Shown here piece after piece: positions 25,017 to 58,049 of a DNA stretch of 64,000 nt. The notes below the pieces were generated by a model, which was not told where the DNA came from, ran no database searches, and saw nothing but the letters and a program-made list of their open reading frames with translations. The stretch spans positions 372,001 to 436,000 of the forward strand of contig NZ_JAGGNW010000009.1 in the NCBI RefSeq assembly GCF_018614875.1. Reading direction: 5' to 3'. The first letter of the stretch is position 1; every line of letters begins with the position of its first letter. The DNA comes from Variovorax paradoxus. Its GTDB lineage: Bacteria > Pseudomonadota > Gammaproteobacteria > Burkholderiales > Burkholderiaceae_C. Both the position numbers and the translations under genes were made by a program.

Positions 25017-25055
25017 CGGGATCGGTTCGCTCGGGTGGGGCGTCTTTTTTTTTGG

Positions 25056-42996: not shown

Positions 42997-44175
42997 TCAG
43001 AGCTCTTCGACGCGGCGCGGGGGATAGCTGTCCCAGGCCTGGCATCCGGGGCAATGCCAGAAGTGCTGGTGCGCTTCGAAGCCGCATGCGGCGCAGCGAT
43101 AGCGCATCAGCGGCCGCGTGGCCTGGTCGAGCGCGCGCTGCACCTGCGGGTGGAACTGCTCGTGCTCGAAGCGCTCGCCGGCAAGCCAGCGCGAAGCGGC
43201 AACCAGCGAGGGCTGCTGGGCAAGGTGAGCGATGTAGCCGTCGCGCGGGGCGAGCGGCTGGCCATCGGCCGCCGGAGTCGCGCTGGCCGGCGAGCCGCCG
43301 AGCGCGATCAGGGCTTCGAGCACATCGATCGACGGCGATTCGGCATAGCGCCGCTGCAGCAGCGCGAGCGCTTCGCCCTCGCGGTGGGCCGCCACGGCGG
43401 CCTGTTGCAGTGCCGCGGCATACAACGGCAGGGCGAGCGGGGCGGTGTCGCTCAGGGCGACAAGGGTGTCGAAGGCCTTGATGCCGTCGCCGTTGCGCAA
43501 CTGCAGCGTGGCGGAATCGATGGCGGGGCGGGGCGCCTGCGGGGCCAGCGCCATCGCCTCGGAGAGCAGCCGGGCGGCCGCGGCCAGGTCGCCGGCCGCC
43601 ACTTGTTCGGATGCCTGCTCGCAGAGATGGTGGGCTCGGCGCGTGCTGTAGCTGGCCTGGTCGGATTCGTCGAGCTTCTGTGCCACGGCGGCAGCCTGGG
43701 CCCATTCGCGCGAACGCTCGTAGATGGCCAGGAGCGAAAGCCGCGCCTCGTTCTCGTAGCGCGTGCCCTCGAGTTTTTGCAGCGCGGCTTCGGCCCGATC
43801 GAGCAGCCCGGCGCGCAGGAAATCCTGTGCCAGCGCATGCTGGGCGCGTTCGCGGTCGCTGCGGCTCAGGTCGCCGCGGCCAAGCAGATGCTCATGCACG
43901 CGCACTGCGCGCTGGTATTCGCCGCGCCGGCGAAACAGGTTGCCCAGGGCGAAGTGCAATTCCTGCGTGTCGGGATCGTTCTGCACGGCCTCGATGAAGG
44001 CATCGATGGCCTGGTCCTGCTGCTCGTTGAGAAGAAAATTGAGGCCGCGGAAATACGCCTTGGGAGCTTGCCGGTTCTCGAGCTTGAGCTGCCGGATGTC
44101 GAAGCGCGAGGCAAGCCAGCCCAGCACGAAGGCGACGGGCAGGCTGATCAGCAGCCAGCTGGGATCAAAGTCCAT
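42997..44175 (-). CDS. lapB: LPS assembly protein LapB (YciM)
   Basis: 392 residues: N-terminal membrane anchor (SWLLISLPVAFVLGWLAS), a row of TPR helices (about 45-340) and a C-terminal rubredoxin-type metal site (YRCAACGFEAHQHFWHCPGC) with its four Cys. LapB controls LpxC degradation by FtsH and so sets lipopolysaccharide synthesis. Its start at 44175 lies inside the end of lapA (11-base overlap), the usual lapAB coupling. Confidence 0.95.
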   Translation of the reverse strand: MDFDPSWLLISLPVAFVLGWLASRFDIRQLKLENRQAPKAYFRGLNFLLNEQQDQAIDAFIEAVQNDPDTQELHFALGNLFRRRGEYQRAVRVHEHLLGRGDLSRSDRERAQHALAQDFLRAGLLDRAEAALQKLEGTRYENEARLSLLAIYERSREWAQAAAVAQKLDESDQASYSTRRAHHLCEQASEQVAAGDLAAAARLLSEAMALAPQAPRPAIDSATLQLRNGDGIKAFDTLVALSDTAPLALPLYAAALQQAAVAAHREGEALALLQRRYAESPSIDVLEALIALGGSPASATPAADGQPLAPRDGYIAHLAQQPSLVAASRWLAGERFEHEQFHPQVQRALDQATRPLMRYRCAACGFEAHQHFWHCPGCQAWDSYPPRRVEEL

Positions 44176-44503
44176 GTTGGCGTACGGTGGGGAGGTCGGT
44201 GGCGGAAATGGACGACGGCTCGGCTGCCGCAGCGGGTGCGGCCTGGCCGGGTGCAGTGGCTTCGTCGCCGCGCGTGGCCGGAAGCTGCGCCGCCGCCGCA
44301 CGGTGCTTCCACCATCCGGGCAGCATGCCGAACGCACCCACCACCAGGCCACCGGCAAAAGCCGCGAGCACGACGAGCACCAGGGGCGCGCGCCAATTCG
44401 TGCCGAAGAAGAAATAGACGGTCGCGTCGTGCTGGTTGTTCAGCGCGAAAGCAAAAAGCGTAAAAAAAATGGCTGCCTTGAGCAGCCACAGGAGGTATTT
44501 CAT
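44165..44503 (-). CDS. lapA: LapA-domain membrane protein
   Basis: 112 residues with two membrane helices (about 5-20 and 41-62) and a GMLPGWWKHR segment, typical of LapA/YciS. The tail after residue 70 is rich in Ala, Pro and Thr and not conserved. AGGAGG is not visible, but the region before ATG has GGGAACGGCT. The first codons include a hairpin followed by eight Ts that looks like an intrinsic terminator (44462-44487). Partner of LapB in LPS regulation. Confidence 0.9.
   Translation of the reverse strand: MKYLLWLLKAAIFFTLFAFALNNQHDATVYFFFGTNWRAPLVLVVLAAFAGGLVVGAFGMLPGWWKHRAAAAQLPATRGDEATAPGQAAPAAAAEPSSISATDLPTVRQHGL
44462..44487 (-). terminator. Terminator-like hairpin inside the start of lapA
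   Basis: On the minus strand GGCTGC-TCAAG-GCAGCC-A-TTTTTTTT spans lapA codons 6-14. A 6-bp GC-rich stem plus eight Us is a textbook intrinsic terminator, but placed in coding sequence. It could attenuate lapAB transcription when lapA is poorly translated. The T8 run is also a potential slippage site. Confidence 0.55.
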
Positions 44504-44552
44504 AGCCGTTCCCGTTGCCGGGAGCATTCTACGTTTGCATCCATGCGATCGA

Positions 44553-44876
44553 TCAGGCCTTGCGGCCCTTGGCTTCCTTGGCGTCGAGCTCGGCGGTCTT
44601 GGCATCGACGGCTTCGCGCAATGCCTTGCCGGGCTTGAAGTGCGGCACCCGCTTTTCGGGGATCTGAACGCTCTCGCCCGAACGCGGGTTGCGGCCGATG
44701 CGCGGCGGACGCCGGTTGACCGAGAAGCTGCCGAAACCGCGGATCTCGATGCGGTGCCCGCGCACCAGCGCGTCGCTCATCGCGTCGAGGATGGTCTTGA
44801 CGGCGTATTCGGCATCGCGGTGCGTCAGCTGCGCGAAGCGCGCTGCGAGTTCTTCGACGAGGTCAGAGCGGGTCAT
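44553..44876 (-). CDS. ihfB: Integration host factor beta subunit
   Basis: 107 residues, a histone-like DNA-bending protein. The beta-arm motif [22 protein letters not shown], with the intercalating Pro, identifies the IHF/HU family, and [14 protein letters not shown] plus the place after rpsA identify the beta subunit. It has a Lys-rich C-terminal tail beyond the usual 94 residues. It is separated from rpsA by a strong terminator, so it probably has a promoter in the short gap or is expressed by readthrough. Confidence 0.95.
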
Positions 44877-44895: not shown

Positions 44896-44937
44896 CGAAA
44901 AAAAAGACAGAGCGGCCCCAGGGCCTGCTCTGTCTTC
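44896..44937 (-). terminator. Intrinsic terminator between rpsA and ihfB
   Basis: On the minus strand AGACAGAGC, a 13-base loop, GCTCTGTCT and an uninterrupted run of Ts. A nine-pair stem makes it one of the strongest terminators in the window. Confidence 0.92.
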
Positions 44938-56987: not shown

Positions 56988-57652
56988 TGGGCGCAGCAAT
57001 CGAGGCCGTGCTGTTCGATCTGGACGGCACGCTGATCGACAGCGCGCCCGATCTCGGCGCCGCGGCCGACAAGATGCGCACGGATCGCGGCCTCGAGTCG
57101 TACCCGCTGGAACGCTATCGGTTCATGGCAGGGGCCGGCGCACGGGGCATGCTCGGCGTGGCCTTCGGCATCACGCCCGAGGCACCGGAGTTCCCCGCAC
57201 TGAGGGAAGAGTTCTTTGTTGCCTACGAAAACCGGATGCTGCTCAACACGCAGGTGTTCGACGGGGTGCCGTCGCTCATCGACGCCATCTGCGCACGCGG
57301 CCTCGTCTGGGGCGTGGTCACCAACAAGTCGGCACGGTTTACCGACCCGCTGACGCGCGCCATTCCGCTTTTCAGCAGTGCAGGTGCCATCGTGAGCGGC
57401 GACACCACGCCCTATTCCAAGCCGCATCCCGAGCCCTTGCATGAGGCGGCACGCCGGCTTGGAATTCCGTCCAGCGCCTGCATCTACGTGGGGGACGACG
57501 AACGCGACATCATCGCGGGCCGCGCCGCCGGCATGCGGACCATTGCGGCTACCTATGGTTACATGGGGCCCCAGGCCGATGCCACCCTCTGGGAGGCCGA
57601 TGCCGCGATTACTTCGCCCCTGGAGCTCTTGCAATTTCTCAAGAGGGCCTAA
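56987..57652 (+). CDS. gph: HAD-family phosphoglycolate phosphatase-like enzyme
   Basis: 221 residues with HAD motif I FDLDGTLIDS, motif II VVTNKSA, motif III KPHPEP and motif IV GDDERDI. In this position the enzyme probably removes phosphoglycolate or a related phosphometabolite. The ATG overlaps the ubiG stop by one base. Its 3' end contains the probable ssrA promoter. Confidence 0.93.
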   Translation: MGAAIEAVLFDLDGTLIDSAPDLGAAADKMRTDRGLESYPLERYRFMAGAGARGMLGVAFGITPEAPEFPALREEFFVAYENRMLLNTQVFDGVPSLIDAICARGLVWGVVTNKSARFTDPLTRAIPLFSSAGAIVSGDTTPYSKPHPEPLHEAARRLGIPSSACIYVGDDERDIIAGRAAGMRTIAATYGYMGPQADATLWEADAAITSPLELLQFLKRA

Positions 57653-57658
57653 AATAAT
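57629..57658 (+). promoter_or_regulatory. Probable ssrA promoter inside the end of gph
   Basis: TTGCAA (57629-57634) and AATAAT (57653-57658) are 18 bases apart, and the -10 box ends 6 bases before the first base of tmRNA. Confidence 0.6.
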
Positions 57659-57664
57659 GGACTT

Positions 57665-58049
57665 GGGGCTGCACTGGTTTCGACGTGGGTTCGGAGTCGC
57701 AGCGGGGCATGTCGAGCTGAATGCGCTCGTAAAACAGATTCAAACAAACTAACTGCAAACGACGAACGTTTCGCACTCGCTGCTTAATTGCCAGTGAGCC
57801 TTGCAACAGTTGGCCGATGGGCTGGGCAAGGGGGTCTGGAGCAATCCTGACCTCCCGGCTGCAAGGATAATTACATGGGCTGGCTCCGATCCGGGTACCT
57901 TGGGTCGGGGCGAGAAAATAGGGTGCTGGCGTCCGGTTTAGCGTGTGACTGCGCGACTCCGGAAGCGAGACTCAAATCAGATCACTAAACATGTAGAACT
58001 GCGCGATGAAGGCTTGCGGACGGGGGTTCAAATCCCCCCAGCTCCACCA
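57665..58049 (+). ncRNA. ssrA: Transfer-messenger RNA
   Basis: 385 bases. The 5' end GGGGCTGCACTGG pairs with the 3' end CAGCTCCACCA, including the G3-U wobble of alanine tRNA; the T arm is GGGGGTTCAAATCCCCC. The tag reading frame at 57755-57787 encodes ANDERFALAA then TAA, the betaproteobacterial form. With SmpB it frees stalled ribosomes and marks the nascent protein for degradation. The terminator follows closely. Confidence 0.97.
57755..57787 (+). other. tmRNA proteolysis-tag reading frame
   Basis: Codons GCA AAC GAC GAA CGT and so on give ANDERFALAA, ended by TAA. The final ALAA is the expected protease-recognition end. Confidence 0.93.

Follow-up and report, generated by a model that had tools for sequence, protein, structure and literature searches.

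What does a terminator-like hairpin do inside the first codons of lapA, and how would it affect transcription into lapAB? We addressed this question in a window of 64,000 nucleotides (64 kb) from Variovorax paradoxus, the whole stretch of DNA that was analysed; all coordinates are positions in this window. The best matches of its LapA protein in named genomes were found in Variovorax. The gene upstream of ihfB is presumably rpsA, to judge by its sequence, and the site lies among the following features.

43000 to 44175, minus strand: region taken as lapB in the family scan (bounds of the scan, not the gene start; Pfam Zn_ribbon_LapB and TPR)
44168 to 44503, minus strand: lapA coding sequence without its stop codon, ATG at 44503-44501 (Pfam LapA_dom)
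44462 to 44469, minus strand: T8 run, ATT TTT TTT, lapA codons 12-14
44469 to 44489, minus strand: terminator stem-loop GTGGCTGCT-CAA-GGCAGCCAT, lapA codons 5-12 (fold and conservation)
44553 to 44876, minus strand: ihfB (Pfam Bac_DNA_binding), ending 49 nt upstream of lapA
44898 to 44934, minus strand: hairpin with T8 between rpsA and ihfB, read in the printed sequence (predicted fold of -20.7 kcal/mol)

Anatomy of the hairpin at the start of lapA

The hairpin and the T8 run together occupy positions 44489-44462 of the minus strand, within lapA codons 5-14. The earlier note had described this element as GGCTGC-TCAAG-GCAGCC-A-T8 (44487-44462); the full stem starts with the third base of codon 5 and contains 9 pairs, 5 of them G-C, closed by a loop of 3 nucleotides. 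The 21-nt stem-loop has a predicted folding energy of -13.5 kcal/mol (z -3.7), a value equalled by none of 200 shuffled sequences, and the stem is retained in predicted RNA folds of both 59 and 91 nt. The U-run follows immediately, with 7 bases of the T8 lying beyond the last pair. The lapA hairpin has the anatomy of an intrinsic terminator: a stable G+C-rich stem, a short loop and a direct U-run. The proposal that a terminator-like hairpin lies in the first lapA codons was confirmed by the sequence, by the fold and by a conservation far beyond that expected from codon choice, described below.

Scans for similar sites were of limited value by themselves. A loose scan of a 9 kb region returned 16 terminator-like sites, the lapA hairpin included, as compared to 7.1 +/- 2.3 in shuffled sequences, and was therefore considered non-specific on its own. 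When the scan required 7 or more pairs in the stem and 7 or more T in 8 bases, thresholds set after the site had been seen, it found 5 sites across all 64 kb, of which 3 are on the plus strand and 2 on the minus strand. This stricter scan is incomplete, since it missed the bulged terminator downstream of rpsA, a hairpin with T8 that sits 21 nt 5' of the ihfB start. In a loose scan of the family, terminator-like signals were found in the rpsA-ihfB gap of 71 out of 136 loci, many of which are close relatives. Runs of at least 8 T occur 4 times in the window, the two strands counted together; one of these, on the plus strand at 25045, lies within G+C-rich sequence.

An Rfam search identified only tmRNA, elsewhere in the window. 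Near the lapA site it returned two sub-threshold matches (E values of 0.29 and 0.51), neither of them on the site, and a known Rfam RNA family was rejected for lack of a match at or above threshold there. Upstream of the tmRNA match, a TAAAAT sequence (plus strand, 57650-57665) starts 15 nt before it and is likely to be the tmRNA -10 box. Our literature search found no RNA-end map for the family to which Variovorax belongs.

Conservation in Variovorax and its relatives

Within the genus, the pattern WLLKAAIFF, with all codons left free, was present once in each of 96 out of 100 genomes, and every synonymous base was identical in 89 of these 96. The 7 variant genomes had a changed loop codon (5), a GCA to GCG change that leaves a U-G pair (1) or one TTT to TTC change (1). 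Two of the four unmatched genomes carry a lapA gene with one changed residue (I to L in one, K to S in the other), and both genes retain the stem and a T run of 7 or 8; the remaining two gave no lapA match. A codon table built from 45 distinct sequences (57 loci) showed that codons 10-14 are GCA GCC ATT TTT TTT in 44 or 45 of the 45, with ATT TTT TTT in all 45. GCA, ATT and TTT are rare locally, with a usage of 0.12, 0.17 and 0.18, respectively, yet fixed. Codons 15-18 vary across the same sequences. Other lapA codons are also fixed, codon 20 for example, and the sole further rare codon fixed in all 45 sequences across codons 1-66 is AAA at codon 2.

The family sample contained 141 loci (L112-L252), mostly one per genus sampled, with two for a few genera, and 132 of them were analysed. 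L113, a second member of the genus, was omitted, and lapA was not found by motif in eight loci (L178, L203, L213, L229, L241, L244, L246 and L252). By eye, L203 has a lapA-like start overlooked by the motif; in L246, a lapB-like start seems to follow ihfB directly, with no lapA between them. Loci were sorted into groups A, B, C and O with regular expressions of our own: group A is KYxxWLLKAAIFF (45 loci), group B carries four additional codons that separate the hairpin arms (31 loci) and group C is WLFRAFIFF-like (48 loci). Expected counts were obtained by resampling codons, with usage pooled over the locus itself and the 15 closest to it in G+C. By our criterion, whose thresholds were likewise set after the lapA site had been seen, the terminator was found in 43 of 45 group A loci (6.9 expected) and 24 of 31 group B loci (3.0 expected), 67 of 76 jointly (9.9 expected). 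It was found in one of 48 group C loci (1.6 expected) and in one of the eight other loci (0.2 expected). The stem and T-run on which the earlier note had staked its proposal are thus kept in relatives, in the 89 genus genomes as in the 67 loci of groups A and B.

Folding energies followed the same division. They were -14.0 against -9.0 under the null in group A (p < 0.05 in 38/45 loci), -15.6 against -8.0 in group B (25/31) and -7.9 against -7.5 in group C (3/48, 2.4 expected). T richness over the final eight bases, which exceeded the null at p < 0.05 in 23/45, 6/31 and 2/48 loci of groups A, B and C, is weaker evidence by itself. Counting a fixed 5-pair hairpin gave 36 of 48 group C loci (16.9 expected) and 1 group B locus (3.65 expected). 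The group C excess was treated as weak because folding energy gives it no backing; the group B deficit is an effect of the loop limit of this metric, so that folding energy was used for group B. As judged from codon choice, the lapA hairpin and its T-run are under strong selection.

In group B, the 12-pair stem could be followed across 33 distinct sequences: 11 cells were changed on both sides, as compared to 5.0 +/- 1.8 in shuffles (matched in 0/500), and pairing is kept in 83.8% of cells, a share that slid versions of the stem bring to no more than 44.7%. Sliding it by -1 gave more both-side changes (16) but pairing of only 39.6%. The number of pairs with a change on both sides, 4 against 2.6, was not unusual (95/500 shuffles). 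By this covariation, the group B stem is kept through compensating changes.

Hairpin-bearing genera among the best 80 loci include Acidovorax, Comamonas, Delftia, Ramlibacter, Curvibacter, Simplicispira and Rhodoferax, among others. The T-run varies: some relatives have T7 instead of T8, many carry T7C, and in L030, L036 and L066 it is shortened or broken. Wherever present in the family loci, the element occupies the ihfB-lapA junction and does not belong to a mobile element; over the 194 bases of lapA that follow it, terminator-like signals turned up in 2 of 132 family loci. An order-level sample of 40 loci was hand-picked from the better matches, and lapA was not found in 16 of them; the terminator was present at the lapA start in none of the 24 loci of other families.

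Transcription into lapAB and the roles considered for the element

Two further features lie between ihfB and lapA.

44510 to 44523, minus strand: inverted repeat TCCCG-gcaa-CGGGA over the lapA ribosome-binding region (family covariation)
44526 to 44531, minus strand: TAGAAT, predicted -10 box, 22 nt 5' of the lapA ATG

The earlier note had mentioned neither the box nor the covarying repeat, nor rpsA-ihfB as a likely source of polymerase traffic. In the genus, TANAAT occurs within 40 nt of the lapA start in 54 of 57 loci, mostly 22 nt from the ATG. In the family, a span of 60 nt before the start contained it in 40/45, 26/31 and 34/48 loci of groups A, B and C (0.6, 1.2 and 0.2 in base shuffles, respectively); no -35 signal was found upstream of the box in the family loci. 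The distance from box to ATG is mostly 22-24 nt in groups A and B and 6-10 nt in 25 of the 34 group C loci with a box, a spacing that suggests a leaderless lapA mRNA. Another TAGAAT in the window lies 8 nt 5' of an ATG (minus strand, 39025-39011), and the gene that follows is possibly leaderless. TAnAAT is given as the mapped -10 consensus in reports on Burkholderia cenocepacia (PMC4603805) and Cupriavidus metallidurans (PMC7563307), which also report leaderless mRNAs for these bacteria.

We propose that an intrinsic terminator within the first 14 lapA codons probably limits transcription from rpsA-ihfB into lapAB. RNA polymerase arriving from rpsA-ihfB, or initiating at the TAGAAT box, would reach the terminator before the rest of lapAB, and lapAB mRNA would be made only by the fraction that escapes. 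If so, the element would end the rpsA-ihfB unit and set lapAB expression at a lower level; since the terminator lies inside lapA, every upstream polymerase bound for lapAB must pass it. What the analysis shows is the sequence of the site, how well it matches a terminator and the selection acting on it; that it terminates in the cell, and how often, we infer. It is plausible, by reasoning, that a ribosome starting on lapA raises the escape. The hairpin starts about where a ribosome on the lapA ATG would be expected to end; such a ribosome would adjoin the hairpin, which makes masking by translation reasonable. The time available would be short, at about 58 nt from the predicted start.

In agreement with a role as boundary and attenuator, intergenic terminators after ihfB, scored by a looser criterion than the element in the coding sequence, were found in 10 of 132 loci and sit mostly where that element is absent (2/75 loci with it, 8/57 without it; Fisher p 0.02). 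In our own scan, both terminators were missing from 37 of 48 group C loci, and that group can therefore do without this arrangement. Box spacing also went with the element: among loci with a spacing of 16-36 nt the terminator was present in 63 and absent in 9, and with a spacing of 6-10 nt it was present in 1 and absent in 26, a count that omits the 33 of 132 loci without a usable box. A tree built from 127 rows of IhfB plus LapA had poor resolution, with a star on 7 of its 124 inner branches, and supported branches gave only two independent trait pairs, mostly uninformative. Ancestry therefore confounds the associations among the element, leader length and intergenic terminators.

A stronger form of the terminator idea, and a tentative one, is that a two-hairpin gate at lapA reads the origin of the transcript. 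In read-through RNA, the upstream arm of the inverted repeat would fold over the lapA ribosome-binding site, no ribosome would load and the terminator would fire. RNA started at TAGAAT would not contain that arm; it would be translated at once, and the ribosome would carry polymerase past the terminator. If RNA starts about 7 nt past the box, at a predicted position near 44519 (about +/-2), the 5' arm would be present only in read-through RNA. Relatives with a spacing of 6-10 nt would reach the same end via a leaderless mRNA, and the association of leader spacing with the terminator is in line with this, but that association is confounded by ancestry. The repeat, which has the ribosome-binding region as its 3' arm, covaries: across 59 distinct 22-nt spacers there were 37 both-side changes, as compared to 17.6 +/- 3.4 in shuffles (matched in 0/500) and 13-26 when slid. 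Averaged over 58 loci, the predicted openness of the binding site was 0.26 for read-through RNA, 0.35 when the 5' arm was random and 0.44 for RNA from the own promoter. Against this reading, the openness predicted for the window itself did not differ (0.33 against 0.35), and its predicted 59-nt own RNA also pairs the binding site, with codons 4-5. Few single loci beat shuffles at p < 0.05 (11/40, 7/24 and 1/9 in groups A, B and C; p 0.126 for the window), and the start sites are predicted, not mapped. The bases of codons 3-5 (44496-44489, minus strand) read ACCTCCTG, a sequence resembling the 16S anti-Shine-Dalgarno; in the 59-nt RNA as predicted, part of it is base-paired to the lapA binding region. 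If the origin of the transcript is read in this manner, the supply of LapB, a regulator of LPS, would be tied to translation initiation.

Readings other than termination ahead of lapAB were also weighed. A promoter-like box, a short span and a hairpin with U8 form the plan of many Hfq-bound RNAs and are all present here, and the hairpin with its U-run could be the 3' end of a small RNA acting on other mRNAs, either about 58 nt long from the predicted start or a 3' fragment of ihfB. Small RNAs internal to open reading frames are reported in E. coli (PMC7815308). At lapA there is no Rfam match near the site, and codons 4-5, in the gap between the ATG and the hairpin, vary with the protein, with no conserved seed seen; we consider a small RNA unlikely. 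That the hairpin instead acts on translation of the finished lapA mRNA would suit its position just past the start codon and the excess of 5-pair hairpins in group C. The T-run, which a translational effect does not need, is kept along with the stem, and group C has no excess of folding energy, which makes such a role improbable.

The symmetry of TGGCTGC-n5-GCAGCCA would fit a palindromic protein-binding site in DNA, but in group B the arms are 12 nt further apart with compensating pairs added, and the T-run stands on one side only. A DNA operator was rejected on the group B arm spacing and pairs, and a palindromic site is very unlikely. Constraint on the protein, a rare-codon ramp or programmed slippage could be invoked for the conserved residues and clustered rare codons, and is extremely improbable as the account of this sequence. 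The synonymous bases are fixed too, and the structure exceeds the expectation from codon choice, the opposite of the low-structure start of a ramp, a reading that was rejected. The suggestion that the T8 run permits slippage was not supported. Of the two shifted frames, examined in 14 group A loci, one stops after 6 codons throughout, and the second stays open over 7 codons in a single locus and over at least 66 in the rest; the shifted frames show no common product, and many relatives carry T7C.

Significance and comparison with known systems

In E. coli, LapB is reported to work with FtsH to limit LpxC and hence LPS synthesis (PMC7730581), and the putative lapA terminator is a candidate control point for LapB. 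A terminator in coding sequence, kept in so many group A and B loci, also offers a clean test case for whether ribosomes shield first codons from intrinsic termination. A literature search of partial coverage found no paper on such control of lapAB in the Variovorax family, and nothing was found on terminators at lapA or ihfB or on terminators overlapping the next gene.

E. coli lapA and lapB are described as co-transcribed from several promoters, one of them upstream of a neighbour gene; that neighbour is pgpB, with a heat-shock promoter, and the word "terminator" does not occur in the available text on E. coli lapAB (PMC7730581). RNA 3' ends internal to open reading frames are known in E. 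coli, and neither lapA nor yciS is named in the main text of that report as available (PMC7815308). Premature 5' terminators are described as ending transcription near or inside a gene start, but there the sensing system precedes the first start codon (PMC2965389). In Methanococcus maripaludis, termination inside an operon is reported to tune gene levels (PMC10450193); the organism is archaeal, and the likeness is restricted to operon-internal termination.

The lapA element shares with intrinsic (Rho-independent) terminators the G+C-rich stem, the short loop and the immediate U-run. Unlike typical intrinsic terminators, it is embedded in the codons of the gene that follows and is preserved via synonymous choices, and unlike a leader transcription attenuator, it is found inside the coding sequence and not between the promoter and that sequence. 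As regards an anti-terminator pairing that might compete with it, the predicted 59- and 91-nt folds both retain the terminator stem. Work by Davis in 1985 on Tn10/IS10 and by Beuzon in 1999 on IS200 is said to have described two layers of protection against read-through from outside promoters, with the ribosome-binding site held in a pairing and transcription blocked where the gene starts. The same two layers are tentatively proposed here at lapA, with the difference that lapA is a fixed housekeeping locus rather than a mobile element and that its terminator lies within the codons.
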